DNA of 64,000 bases from Thermococcus sp. 2319x1 (lineage in GTDB: Archaea > Methanobacteriota_B > Thermococci > Thermococcales > Thermococcaceae). Below are positions 26,545-46,023 of this stretch, one piece after another; within the stretch, counting starts at the first letter, position 1; each line of letters begins with the position of its first letter. The notes below the pieces were generated by a model. That model was not told the DNA's origin and searched no databases. It saw only the letters and a list, made by a program, of their open reading frames with translations. The stretch spans positions 800,321-864,320 of the forward strand of contig NZ_CP012200.1 in the NCBI RefSeq assembly GCF_001484685.1, read 5' to 3'. Made by a program: the position numbers and the translations under genes.

Positions 26545-26643
26545 GCCCCAGATTTTATCTTAACTTTTTCCAAACGCCTTGCTTAACTGTTCTCTCTGAA
26601 CGAAAGCTTTGCTTTAAATATTTTCGTGAATAATTGTGAGTGT

Positions 26644-27273
26644 ATGGTAGTGAAAGAGAAACTCTACACGGTAAAGCAAGCAAGCGAAATTCTCGGCGTT
26701 CACCCAAAAACAATTCAAAAATGGGATAAGGAAAGGAAAATCAAAACCATTAGGACACCCGGCGGAAGACGAAGAATACCAGAAAGCGAAATCAAGAGAC
26801 TTCTCGGTATAAGCGAAGAGAAAGGCATAATCATTGGCTATGCAAGAGTCTCAAGCCATACCCAAAAAGATGACTTGGAAAGGCAGGTTGAAGCTATCAA
26901 GCAATACGCAAAAGAACGAGGCTGGCAAGTCCAAATACTCAAAGACATCGGTTCAGGATTGAACGAGAACAGGAAAAACTATCGCAAACTCCTCAAACTC
27001 GTCGTAAAGGGAGAAGTCTCAAAAGTCATAGTCACTTATCCCGACAGGCTCACCCGCTTTGGCTTCAAAACTATCGAATTCTTCTTCAAGGAAAACGGTG
27101 CAGAGATAATAATCATCAACGAGAAAGAAAAATCCCCACGAAAAGAACTCATTGAAGACTTGATAACAATAATCAGCCACTTCGCTGGCAAGCTCTACGG
27201 AGCTCGTTCCCACAAATACAAAAAGCTCAAAGAAGGCGTGAAAAAATTAATCGAGGAGGTCGAGAATGACTAA
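26644..27273 (+). CDS. tnpA: IS607-family serine recombinase TnpA
   Basis: A 209-residue IS607-type transposase. Residues 5-55 are a MerR-like helix-turn-helix ([20 protein letters not shown], then TPGGRRRI). The resolvase core follows: GYARVSS carries the nucleophile serine (70 or 71), DDLERQ and the DRLTRFGF loop are the other conserved parts. I prefer the ATG at 26644 over the GTG at 26626. It overlaps tnpB by eight bases. The protein appears intact, so the element could still be mobile. Confidence 0.93.
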
Positions 27274-28519
27274 AGTCGTTCTCACATACAAAATGCCTCA
27301 CAACTGGAATGTTGATTCGTTCCTCAAAGAATATCAAAAACTGCTCCAGAGAGCAATTGATGAAATATGGGAAAGCACGACTTGGAAGGAGAAGAGAGTT
27401 AAGCACAGGTATTCCATCGGTGACAGGAAGCATCACTACTACGAGACAACTCGTTTAATCCCTTATTTTCCACAATCAAACGAGTTCAAGCGAAAACTGA
27501 GGAACGAACTCCTCCGAGAGTGGCCTTTTGCTAAGCACTACGTTGATTCTGCAATAAAGACCGCTTATTCAATCCTCAAGAGCTGGAGGCAGAACTACCT
27601 CAAAGGAAAGCGAAGAAGAGCGAAGCCAGTCGTTAAGAGAAAGTTCGTGAGGGTGAAAACGACTCTGATGAAAGTCGAAGACTCGACAATCAGAATAACA
27701 ATTAAACCGAGGGAAGAATACCTTGAACTGGACTTCTCAAAGGAGTGGTTCTACGAGAGAATCAAGGAATGGAAGGTTGGTGAACTGATAATCAGAGAGA
27801 AAGATGTCCTCCTCACTTTCTCAAAGGAAGTCGAGTTCTCTGGAAGAATCAAAATCGGTATTGACAGCAACCTCACAAGCCTTGACATCTTTCACCCTGA
27901 AAGAGGTTGGATTAGGGTAGACTTGAGCAAGCTACACAGGATTGCCGAGACTTATGACAGAATTATTGACGGACTGAAGAGCGTTCAGCGGAAAGCCCCG
28001 AAGAGGATTGGAGTGTTGCTCAAGAAATACTGGACGAGAAGAAGGAACAGGATTGATGATTACCTGAACAAGCTCGCAGTCCAGCTTTCGAGGGAGTTTC
28101 CCGACGCTGTTTTCGTCTTCGAGGACTTGGACAAATTCAAAATGCTCCAGAACGGTTCGAGAAAGTTTAACAGGAAGCTTTCCCGTGCCATTTGGAAGAA
28201 AATCGTTGGAAAGCTTTCTTATCGTGTTCTAATCGAGTTTGTCAATCCCGCTTACACTTCGTCCACCTGCCCGGTGTGTGGGAAGAGGTTGGAGTCCCGA
28301 AACGGGCTGGTGGAGTGTCCCAACTGTGGTTTCGAGGCTAATAGGCAGTTTGTTGGTGCTTTTAATGTTTGGGTGCGGGGACTCGGGGTCGCCCTGAGCG
28401 GGGCTGAGCGTGATGGTTTGCTCCTCGATGAACCCAGAGGGGAGCTGAACGTGATGAGGCCCAAGTCCGTCGTGAGGGTTGATTTAAACGGGAGGAGGTT
28501 TACTCATATTCCTCCCTAA
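27266..28519 (+). CDS. tnpB: TnpB (RNA-guided nuclease family), RuvC-III acid replaced
   Basis: A 417-residue TnpB, the transposon-encoded relative of Cas12 that uses an RNA from the element's right end as guide. RuvC-I is present with Asp200 in IGIDSN, and RuvC-II with Glu286 in FVFEDLDKF. The zinc ribbon has Cys335, 338, 351 and 354. After the ribbon, active TnpBs carry Asp in a D/N-R-D block; here the sequence is [12 protein letters not shown], so position 361 is Gln. By alignment from memory this is the third catalytic acid, which would make the nuclease weak or dead. The reading frame is otherwise full length, with no frameshift. Confidence 0.92.
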
Positions 28520-28616: not shown

Positions 28617-29918
28617 ATGATAGATGAGCTGATTAAAATCCTAAACCGCGAGAACGTTGAGTGGGAAGTTTACTGGGAGATTGGTAGGGGAAGTTCGTTT
28701 AAAATTGAGAATTGTGAGCTTGAGAGAGCCCAGAGGAGATACCATTCTGGCATTGGCCTTAGGGTAGGGTATAAAGGGAAGCAGGGCTTTTCCTATATTA
28801 CCGGGCTAACCCACTCAAAAGAAGACCTTGAAAAGTTTGTTAAAAAGGCCATAAAACTTGCAAAGGTCGGAGAGGTAAAGTTTTACGGATTCCCCGAAAA
28901 AAAGTCCGCCAAAAAGGTTAGCGGGATTTATGATAAGCGGATAGCGGAGCTGGAGTTTGAAGAAGCTTTGGAGCTGGGGATGGAGATTTCCAAAAAAGAG
29001 AGCGAGCTGAGAGATAAATACGGCAGAAGCTATACTTTTTCGGGGAGATTGGCCTTTGGTGTGGCAAAAGACGGCATAGTGAATTCAAACGGGATCGAGA
29101 TGGAAGAAGAAGGCACAGCGATGAGCTTTAGCGTTTACATAGTTAGAAAAGACGGGAAAGTTGGAACAGGGAGTTACCACAAAGCCTCAAGAACTATGAT
29201 GGACTTCGAAAGAGAGCTTGAGGAAGGGCTAGAAAAGGCTATGCAGGAGGTTGAGCTAAGCTACAACGCAAAACCGCTTGAGTCCTTTGAGGGAGAACTC
29301 GTCTTAGAGCCGCACTCAGTTGCGTCAATCCTTGAACTGTTCATTTCAAACCTGAGGGGGGATAACGTATATCACAAAAGGGGCAGATTCAACAAACTGG
29401 GTGAAAGCGTTGCAAGTGAGGCGTTTACCCTCGTTGATGATGCCACGCTGAAAGGCAGAATAGCAAGCTATTCCTTTGACGGCGAAGGAAACCCCAGCCA
29501 AAAGACTGTTTTAGTCAAAAATGGAATATTGACAAACTTTCTCTTAGATGAAACCTATGCAAGGCTTCTTGAAATGGAGAGCACGGGAAATGCCGTGAGA
29601 GACTTTAGGAATCCTCCCCACATAGGGACGAGCAACATAATCGTGGAGGGAAAAGAAGAGAACCTCGAGGATTTTGAAGGAGTTATAATAAAAAAGGTCT
29701 TTGGCGAGCACACTGCAAACCCAATAAGCGGGGATTTCTCATTAACAGTGGAACTTGGATATGTTGTTAAAAATGGTGAAATAATCCCGTTTAAGGACAA
29801 CATGTTTACTGGAAATATATTCGAGTTCATGAGCTCTATACTTGCCGTAGGGAAGAAAAAGGAGGAGCTTGGAGCGTTTATATCTCCCAGAGTACTCGGT
29901 ATGGGGAGGATTGTTTAG
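28617..29918 (+). CDS. tldE: TldE/PmbA subunit
   Basis: A 433-residue TldD/PmbA family protein, the partner subunit of the TldD/TldE protease. It shares the fold-defining blocks (ASYSFDGEGNPSQKTVLVKNG, NPISGDFSL, FTGNIFEFM) but lacks HExxxH; the matching region reads LEPHSVASIL. This is the pattern expected for the non-metal subunit. A CTTTAATAATC TATA-like element and GGGTGG precede the ATG, so the gene probably keeps its own promoter despite the IS607-type element between it and tldD. Confidence 0.9.
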   Translation: MIDELIKILNRENVEWEVYWEIGRGSSFKIENCELERAQRRYHSGIGLRVGYKGKQGFSYITGLTHSKEDLEKFVKKAIKLAKVGEVKFYGFPEKKSAKKVSGIYDKRIAELEFEEALELGMEISKKESELRDKYGRSYTFSGRLAFGVAKDGIVNSNGIEMEEEGTAMSFSVYIVRKDGKVGTGSYHKASRTMMDFERELEEGLEKAMQEVELSYNAKPLESFEGELVLEPHSVASILELFISNLRGDNVYHKRGRFNKLGESVASEAFTLVDDATLKGRIASYSFDGEGNPSQKTVLVKNGILTNFLLDETYARLLEMESTGNAVRDFRNPPHIGTSNIIVEGKEENLEDFEGVIIKKVFGEHTANPISGDFSLTVELGYVVKNGEIIPFKDNMFTGNIFEFMSSILAVGKKKEELGAFISPRVLGMGRIV

Positions 29919-30137
29919 CCAGTTTCCAATAGCATAACCGGTATAAAGGCTCTCAAAAACCTCCCCCTAATCTCCTTAATTTTTAGCTTCAGTTTTTGGG
30001 TGCGTTCCCCCTCCAAGCAATGCAACTTCATTGTTAAGGAAACAAAGCGTGCACTCTGAAATGACAACATCAAAAGCGTTTATCTGCTAAGATAAAAGTA
30101 GTTCTACCTTCCATCCGCCACAAAAGTTTATACGCTT

Positions 30138-30200
30138 AGCGGCTCAGGGGTTGACCATCATCACAGTTCAGATACCCTAGAGTTCGTCATCGCCTGCTCT
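30138..30200 (-). ncRNA. C/D box sRNA (2'-O-methylation guide)
   Basis: On the minus strand this reads as a complete archaeal C/D box sRNA. Box C is GCGATGA (30187-30193), a 15-base guide follows (30172-30186), D' is CTGA (30168-30171), a 3-base spacer, C' is GTGATGA (30158-30164), a 10-base guide (30148-30157), and box D is CTGA (30144-30147). The ends pair as a terminal stem (AGC/GGC with GCC/GCT). A TATA-like TTTTTATAAGGC (30214-30225) is placed for a start near 30196. The methylation targets could not be assigned with confidence by eye. Confidence 0.82.
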
Positions 30201-30269
30201 AAATACAGAGGAAGCCTTATAAAAATTATTCGATGAGTCGAGAATTAAAATAAAAGATAAAAGGAAATA

Positions 30270-32563
<2,294 letters not shown>

Positions 32564-45271: not shown

Positions 45272-45336
45272 CTTGAACGATGAGGACACTTTGACCATCT
45301 GAGTGGTGATGACTACGGGAGTGACCGAGCTCAAAG
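45272..45336 (+). ncRNA. Candidate C/D box sRNA with unusual D box
   Basis: Box C ACGATGA (45277-45283), 15-base guide, D' CTGA (45299-45302), 3-base spacer, C' GTGATGA (45306-45312), 12-base guide, then CCGA (45325-45328) where CTGA is expected. The flanks CTTGA and TCAAAG can pair as a terminal stem. A TATA-like CCTTAAATC (45244-45252) fits a start near 45274. The spacing copies the sRNA at 30138-30200 closely. The non-canonical D box lowers confidence. Its 3' end overlaps the stop of the convergent mptE gene. Confidence 0.6.
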
Positions 45337-46023
45337 CTCTATTATCCTTGCCTTTCCATTCTTTTTGAGCCAGTCCAGAAGCATTTGAGCAATTTCAAAC
45401 TTTTTCTTCTTACTTTCCCATATTGGGCCGTGTTCCTCCAAGTAAGGCTTGCTCCACTTCCCGACGATTTCCCCAAAATCAAAGCCAATGAGAAAAATTT
45501 CCTTTGCTCCAAGCTCCTCCGCAAGAAAAACAGCTCTGTCTCCATCGGTAAAACCGCCAAAGTTGTAAACAATGTCCAGAGGCTTTGTTTGACATGTTCC
45601 CAAAACGTTCCTGAGCTTTGGGACATAAGCTTTAAGTTTGTCCATGTTGTCGCCATGGGCATGAACAACGGCATAAGCCCCAAGCTCGTTTGCCCTCTTT
45701 ATGTCTTCAAATCTTCCATCCAAATCCGTGACAACAATATCCGGAGTGATGCCATACTCCAAAAATGCTGAGGTTGCCCCATCGGCGGCTATTAAGGTTC
45801 CCTCAAATTTTTCTCCCCTGAATGCCTTCTCCAAGCTCGGCCCGGCTCCAAAAACATAAGCTCTCTCGCTAATTCTTTTTTTGAGGTCTTCAACCAGAAT
45901 GTAGTTTTTGTTCTCCAACAAAAGTTCCCTCAATAAAAAGGCAGCTTCTCTGTCTCTCCCTCTATCGTAGCCCATTTTGTTGATGATTTGGATGTAAAAT
46001 GGTTCCCAATCCACCCATTTCAT
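45331..46023 (-). CDS. mptE: 6-hydroxymethylpterin diphosphokinase MptE
   Basis: A 230-residue member of the MptE (DUF115) family. It transfers diphosphate from ATP to 6-hydroxymethyl-7,8-dihydropterin on the archaeal route to folate- or methanopterin-type cofactors. FGAGPSLEK, AADGATSA, VTDLDG and VHAHGDNM are the conserved blocks; the last acids and histidines probably bind Mg and substrate. The gene is alone on the minus strand. The gene order gives no other pterin genes. Confidence 0.92.
   Translation of the reverse strand: MKWVDWEPFYIQIINKMGYDRGRDREAAFLLRELLLENKNYILVEDLKKRISERAYVFGAGPSLEKAFRGEKFEGTLIAADGATSAFLEYGITPDIVVTDLDGRFEDIKRANELGAYAVVHAHGDNMDKLKAYVPKLRNVLGTCQTKPLDIVYNFGGFTDGDRAVFLAEELGAKEIFLIGFDFGEIVGKWSKPYLEEHGPIWESKKKKFEIAQMLLDWLKKNGKARIIEL

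Follow-up and report, generated by a model that had tools for sequence, protein, structure and literature searches.

A family-wide C/D box sRNA gene in Thermococcus sp. 2319x1 with a predicted methylation target near the peptidyl-transferase centre of 23S rRNA

The window (the whole stretch of 64,000 nucleotides that was analysed, G000:C1:800321-864320 of a single-contig genome of 1,961,221 bases) contains a C/D box sRNA gene at 30138-30225 on the minus strand. The gene has the boxes and stem of its class and is conserved across the family, its D′ guide can pair with 23S rRNA in a manner that changes in relatives preserve, and its box C covaries with box D in the k-turn. Very probably, the gene has its own promoter, its D′ guide directs 2′-O-methylation of 23S C2532 and its D guide is a passenger. 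In the proposed mechanism, an sRNA of about 54 nt would be transcribed leftward from its own TATA promoter. The C/D and C′/D′ motifs would form k-turns to which L7Ae, and then Nop5 and fibrillarin, would bind. Nucleotides 2-11 of the D′ guide would pair with 23S UACCCUGGGG and direct methylation of C2532, which corresponds to E. coli position 2441 and belongs to the 23S strand leading into the peptidyl-transferase centre, while the D guide would be carried along with no conserved target. The guide mechanism is the ordinary one and the sRNA itself is an addition to a known class. What it adds for this genome is a family-wide guide RNA that the Rfam gathering thresholds miss, together with the prediction of one 2′-O-methyl near the catalytic centre whose guide is carried throughout the family.

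The gene is intergenic. On one side is tldE, a PmbA/TldD-family gene (28617-29918, plus strand), and on the other a Fer4_20/Pyr_redox_2 gene (30270-31697, minus strand), called nfnL in an earlier sequence-only reading of the window, which had correctly placed the sRNA in this gap. Read on the minus strand, the order of elements is TTTATAA, 22 nt, GGC-G-ATGACGA-ACTCTAGGGTAT-CTGA-ACT-GTGATGA-TGGTCAACCC-CTGA-GCC. The TATA box TTTATAA is at 30217-30223, its TTATAA being invariant in ten of ten genus sequences. Its centre is 26 nt ahead of the first G of the terminal stem; the median distance from TATA box to start site in T. kodakarensis is given as 23 bp in PMC4247193. A second TATA-like element, GTATAAAC, was seen at 30126-30133 on the minus strand, 7 nt beyond the 3′ half of the stem. 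The window's copy faces the tldE end; as GTATAARC the element is kept in genus loci L003-L008 and is absent from L009-L011. Adjoining tldE, at 26626-28519 on the plus strand, are a serine resolvase with a MerR-like HTH and a TnpB/Cas12f-like protein, a pair which we take to be an IS607-type arrangement.

The terminal stem is formed by GGC (30192-30194) and GCC (30141-30143), both on the minus strand as are all elements of the gene; the GGC, and GAGCCGCTAA on the 3′ side, are invariant in the ten sequences of the genus alignment (A2). Box C, ATGACGA, is at 30184-30190 and is followed by the 12-nt D′ guide ACTCTAGGGTAT (30172-30183). Box D′ (30168-30171) is CTGA here and in each of the 81 window-type copies that a search with up to three mismatches retrieved. 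The D′-C′ spacer ACT (30165-30167) is 3 nt long, and ranges from 3 to 24 nt among the 76 parsed relatives. At box C′ (GTGATGA, 30158-30164), all but one of the 78 distinct window-type sequences have RTGATGA after box D′, the exception being GTGACGA in L142. The 10-nt D guide TGGTCAACCC (30148-30157) is variable among relatives, and box D (CTGA, 30144-30147) reads CTGA in 37, CCGA in 31 and CGGA in 8 of the 78; none of the three was found in L142 and L103. The box C/box D k-turn pattern of archaeal C/D sRNAs (RUGAUGA, CUGA and a terminal stem) is thus represented by ATGACGA and CTGA with the GGC/GCC stem, and the internal C′/D′ pattern by CTGA and GTGATGA with the 3-nt spacer. Boxes D′, C′ and D, the 3-base spacer, the 10-base D guide, the terminal stem and the TATA box had all been named in the sequence-only reading and are all present on the minus strand.

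The placement of box C was revised. The sequence-only reading had taken the heptamer GCGATGA as box C, which led to a D′ guide of 15 bases. The G that follows GGC is where the two readings of box C overlap, and the A of ATGACGA is 30190. ATGANGA is found in 78 of 78 distinct window-type sequences. The heptamer GCGATGA, by comparison, reads GCAATGA (five) or GCTATGA (one) in six of the 78, variants that are without the G needed for the sheared pair. Box C is placed likewise in the four Rfam alignments shown. From these three observations box C is taken as ATGACGA; the earlier box had been set three bases too early, and the D′ guide is therefore 12 nt long (30172-30183) rather than 15. The 78 distinct sequences come from a recount that made no demand on box C and still required AGGGTATCTGA. 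The search expression of a previous parse had demanded the C box, the guide and box D′, and its box counts are therefore conditional; both parses gave the same 78 sequences. Of the 82 rows of the first parse four are g3 sequences; the four NCCCAGGG variants of g3 escaped its expression, and an unrelated match due to chance (L098/L138) was excluded. Box C′ and box D were parsed in 76 of the 78, L103 and L142 being left unparsed. In g4 loci L088, L094-L098, L114 and L131 the D′-C′ spacer is 16-22 nt, which is long for an archaeal C/D sRNA, and contains a G+C-rich sequence resembling an inverted repeat.

In a C/D k-turn, nucleotide 5 of box C stands opposite nucleotide 2 of box D, and the consensus pair is U.U. 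Nucleotide 5 is C in the window, where the consensus is U, and none of the 78 distinct window-type sequences has the consensus base there, yet the position covaries with nucleotide 2 of box D. Among the 76 parsed sequences the combinations are C.C (29), A-U (27), C.U (7) and C-G (5), with G.U (3), A.G (3), A.C (1) and G-C (1) being rarer. A purine as against C in box C is associated with U as against C or G in box D (Fisher 1.9e-9, an overstated value, as related sequences are not independent and phylogeny is uncorrected). Eleven of the 76 combinations, the window's C.U included, are neither Watson-Crick, G.U nor C.C. The shift of box D away from CTGA may, from this pattern, be a co-change with box C rather than decay.

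Conservation was examined in 94 genomes of the family, which fall into six genera (g1-g6), the window's genus g1 being represented by 13. A DNA search with E <= 1 as the limit matched 12 of these 13, and for ten the E-value was no higher than 1.5e-12. The ten-sequence genus alignment A2 shows TTATAA, GGC, ATGA-GA, CTCTAGGGTATCTGA, TGATGA and CTGAGCCGCTAA to be invariant. All 94 genomes were then searched with a sequence-only model derived from A2 and with the pattern TGANGANCTCTAGGGTATCTGA, at most three mismatches being allowed. Guide nucleotides 1-11 with box D′ are exact in 79 of the 85 genomes outside g3, and carry one substitution (U to C at guide nucleotide 10) in two, G063 and G068. The four genomes lacking a pattern match (G009, G010, G012 and G074) are 61-82% complete. 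The window-type sRNA is therefore present in 81 of 85 genomes outside g3, the conservation in relatives expected of an archaeal C/D box sRNA; other three-mismatch matches outside g3 are regarded as chance. A looser pattern, run without mismatches, was absent from all 21 genomes that belong to the class but not to the family. When g3 is included, the guide is present in all 74 family genomes that are at least 90% complete, though in two differently built sRNAs. With the sRNA model, a further match immediately upstream of the window-type sRNA was obtained in four of the 14 loci searched (L084, L085, L087 and L090, all of g4); the g4 gene may thus often follow another sRNA gene in tandem.

Within the guide, nucleotides 1-9 and 11 are unvarying in the 81 window-type copies, and all four bases occur at nucleotide 12. 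Fixed nucleotides 1-11, apart from nucleotide 10, and a free nucleotide 12 are what a duplex of nucleotides 2-11 predicts. The D guide drifts among relatives, from TGGTCAAAGC to AAAAAGAGAG. The comparison thus indicates that the D′ guide alone is under strong constraint and the D guide is not. We regard conservation as decisive for a real C/D box sRNA gene at this locus. The sequence-only reading had named lack of box conservation in related genomes, along with lack of a transcript, as the finding that would count against it, and the boxes are clearly conserved.

The target set, 8,757 nt in all, was drawn from the genome of the window and consisted of its 16S, 23S, two 5S, SRP and 46 tRNA sequences, with tRNA-Trp and RNase P RNA outside the set. 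Counted from box D′, guide nucleotides 2-11 pair with 23S UACCCUGGGG through eight Watson-Crick and two G.U pairs, and this site, at 23S 2528, is the sole fully paired one for these nucleotides in the set. Ten pairs is the duplex length at which methylation in vitro is reported to be highest (Yang et al. 2016, cited in PMC7089733). By the N+5 rule (PMC4644070) the Cm is predicted at native C2532. In the alignment with E. coli this position corresponds to 2441 and native 2542 to A2451, so the predicted methyl is ten nucleotides from the latter. The D′ guide in this way combines a 10-12 nt guide next to box D′, complementarity to rRNA and a nucleotide at N+5. Guide nucleotide 1 (30172) is a U opposite a C of 23S and is mismatched, yet it is U in all 81 D′ copies and in the nine D copies of g3.

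The strength of this match depends on the score used. In an ungapped run-score scan, with 5S omitted, 23S GCTACCCTGGGGATA came first, and 18 of 100 shuffled guides did as well. A fully paired site, with G.U counted fully, was also found for 330 of 1000 permuted guides, or for 194 of 1000 when the g3 variants were considered jointly. By stacking energy, a score chosen after these two weak tests and not planned beforehand, the 23S site reached -18.9 kcal/mol against -15.4 for the runner-up and was equalled by 10 of 400 permuted guides; jointly with the two g3 guide types the values were -20.6 and -17.1, with one of 400 permutations as good. A separate permutation run of the energy gave 1 of 150 for the single guide and 0 of 150 jointly with the g3 variants. 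The g3 changes U8 to C and U10 to C turn G.U into G-C at the 23S site, so that pairing is kept; nucleotide 11 mispairs with 23S in three of the four NCCCAGGG-type g3 guides. On the 23S side, AGCTACCCTGGGGATAACAGAG was found unchanged in 65 of 94 family genomes, by a pattern that ended in GGC for GAG (two bases off) with two mismatches allowed, so that a changed target could not match. G076 has a different sequence at its only match to the pattern. No match was obtained in 28 of the 94, among them 13 of the 74 good genomes, all drafts of at least 20 contigs, and every family genome that is in one or two contigs gave a match. The non-matches are likely due to rRNA contigs absent from the assemblies.

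The sequence-only reading had noted, with doubt, a complementarity of the guide to 16S AGATACCC, which is a sequence of the 790 loop. A genuine C/D sRNA whose D′ guide acts there would have eight contiguous pairs at 16S 745-752, guide nucleotide 1 and two box D′ bases included, and would account for the invariant nucleotide 1. However, only six of these pairs are outside box D′, nucleotides 7, 10 and 11 are mismatched, the fixed nucleotides 7-11 are left unexplained, and the site is not among the leading ones by energy. As the main target of the D′ guide it was rejected, and we consider it improbable; the doubt was justified, 23S C2532 being the well-supported better candidate by predicted pairing. 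It is slightly less probable again that the guide serves the two rRNAs in turn, 23S UACCCUGGGG with nucleotides 2-11 and 16S AGAUACCC of the 790 loop with nucleotides 1-6 and box D′. Were this so, one sRNP would contact the rRNA of both subunits and combine the roles of chaperone and methylation guide, and the invariant U at nucleotide 1 would be explained despite its mismatch with 23S. Somewhat likelier than either, though still unlikely, is a non-ribosomal target outside the scanned set (an mRNA, the tRNA-Trp precursor or another RNA), as the guide is conserved beyond the needs of a ten-pair duplex with two G.U pairs. The D arm of tRNA-Cys also pairs with 11 of 12 bases (guide nucleotides 1-11 and one of box D′), but its mismatch falls at guide nucleotide 4, next to the one that determines which base is methylated, and the arm was rejected as a D′ target. 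A whole-genome search with the 14-nt complement, G.U allowed, gave eight places, of which one is the gene itself and none is at a mapped tRNA, rRNA or SRP RNA.

The same sequence could be an element of the nfnL 3′ UTR, such as an L7Ae-bound k-turn structure, with no separate RNA. It is on the strand of nfnL, box C begins 80 nt past the nfnL stop, and nfnL is directly upstream in seven of the ten genus loci tested (L002-L006, L010 and L011), the window's included; the upstream gene of L009 was outside the stretch covered. A TATA box at the right distance argues against this. In L007 and L008 the upstream gene is TrmI, and the TATA box and the sRNA, with its boxes and guide, are retained; boxes and guide are likewise present in the five g4 loci tested, although nfnL is there at a distance of about 1.3 kb. 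A change of upstream gene with TATA and sRNA staying in place speaks for an independent promoter and against a 3′ UTR element, a reading that we hold to be highly improbable. A chance likeness to C/D box RNA could be argued from the lack of any Rfam family at its gathering score, but conservation in the 81 genomes refutes it and leaves it a negligible probability. An sRNA gene with its own TATA promoter, presumably transcribed leftward, is thus supported, and the corresponding proposal of the sequence-only reading stands, with boxes, stem and TATA all conserved in relatives.

For the D guide no comparable target was obtained. The best site of the window's D guide in the target scan was equalled by 184 of 200 shuffles, and a joint scan of five genus D-guide variants, aligned at C′, was equalled by 62 of 200. 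A candidate at the 5′ end of 16S, CGGTTGATCC, was rejected, since relatives preserve it poorly and shuffled guides do equally well. A dual-guide sRNA has targets for both guides, and here the D guide is without one; it is best called an orphan guide on these comparisons, a kind described in PMC7994747. The sequence-only reading had expected two guided methylations and had proposed a search of both guides against the rRNA and tRNA of the organism. For the D′ guide such a search put 23S C2532 best by energy, and for the D guide it gave no target, so that only the constrained D′ guide is left with a predicted methylation.

In all nine g3 genomes the C2532 guide is the D guide of another sRNA, as CCCTAGGGTAT in five genomes and NCCCAGGGTAT in four, each before CTGA. 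Genus g3 is probably Pyrococcus, partly because of its matches to Rfam's Pyrococcus family. Like the window sRNA, this sRNA carries the guide to 23S C2532; unlike it, the guide is in the D position, box C is of consensus form, and the D′ guide, GTTCGCTAGA (e.g. L105, L107 and L109), is unrelated; its pairing with 23S 2477-2487 contains one mismatch in g3. The nucleotide at N+5 of that D′ guide is native A2481, 51 nt from C2532; most rRNA-targeting sRNAs of Pyrobaculum are described as having dual guides aimed less than 100 nt apart (Lui et al. 2018, as cited in PMC7994747). The g3 sRNA reaches the snoPyro_CD gathering score in four of six loci tested (L105, L106, L107 and L109), whereas the window sRNA does not. 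A D′ guide of the g3 type, with one base different, occurs in an sRNA of five of seven g5 genomes and of the one g6 genome, all of which carry the window-type sRNA too. In the six loci read (L182-L187) the D′ guide of this sRNA is GTTCGCTAGGT and its D guide, (C/G)TGCACGTCAGG, is unrelated to that of g3. The shared D′ guide with an unrelated D guide suggests that the g3 sRNA swapped its D guide for the C2532 guide. The simplest history, as we infer it from these sequences, is that the guide for the site moved to another sRNA in g3 and the window-type gene was lost there. A conserved site with a relocated guide, D′ of one sRNA and D of another, would be a clean case for studies of guide-set evolution.

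In an Rfam scan no family reached its gathering score at the window sRNA. The match to sR1 (RF01152) covered 30142-30194 with 33.4 bits (E 1.1e-4 for the whole window; gathering 45) and was carried by the boxes and the stem, the guides being different; snoPyro_CD (RF00095) scored 28.2 bits over the full model (gathering 45). With the Pyrococcus sR families, RF00095 and RF01152, the window sRNA shares the C, D′, C′ and D boxes, a GGC/GCC stem, a D′ guide of 12 nt and a length of about 54 nt. It differs from the four Rfam families with an alignment shown in its guides and in nucleotide 5 of box C, which is not U. PMC4644070 and PMC7994747 report hundreds of archaeal C/D sRNAs and treat methylation hotspots around the peptidyl-transferase centre, gene rearrangement and orphan guides, and 54 C/D RNAs have been seen in T. 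kodakarensis (PMC4247193). The number 2441 is absent from the main text of PMC4644070, and neither C2441 nor Cm2441 was found in the literature searched for that methyl. The sRNA and the 2441 methyl of 23S go unnamed in the titles and abstract openings covered; supplementary tables, especially those for T. kodakarensis and Pyrococcus, may list them.

A second C/D box sRNA candidate was noticed elsewhere in the window, at 45276-45330 on the plus strand, with the order ATGAGGA-CACTTTGACCAT-CTGA-GTG-GTGATGA-CTACGGGAGTGA-CCGA. Its box C is 20 nt past a TATAA, and the candidate reaches as far as the stop of a convergent ORF (45331-46023, minus strand). Rfam sR39 matches it with 25.4 bits (gathering 50).
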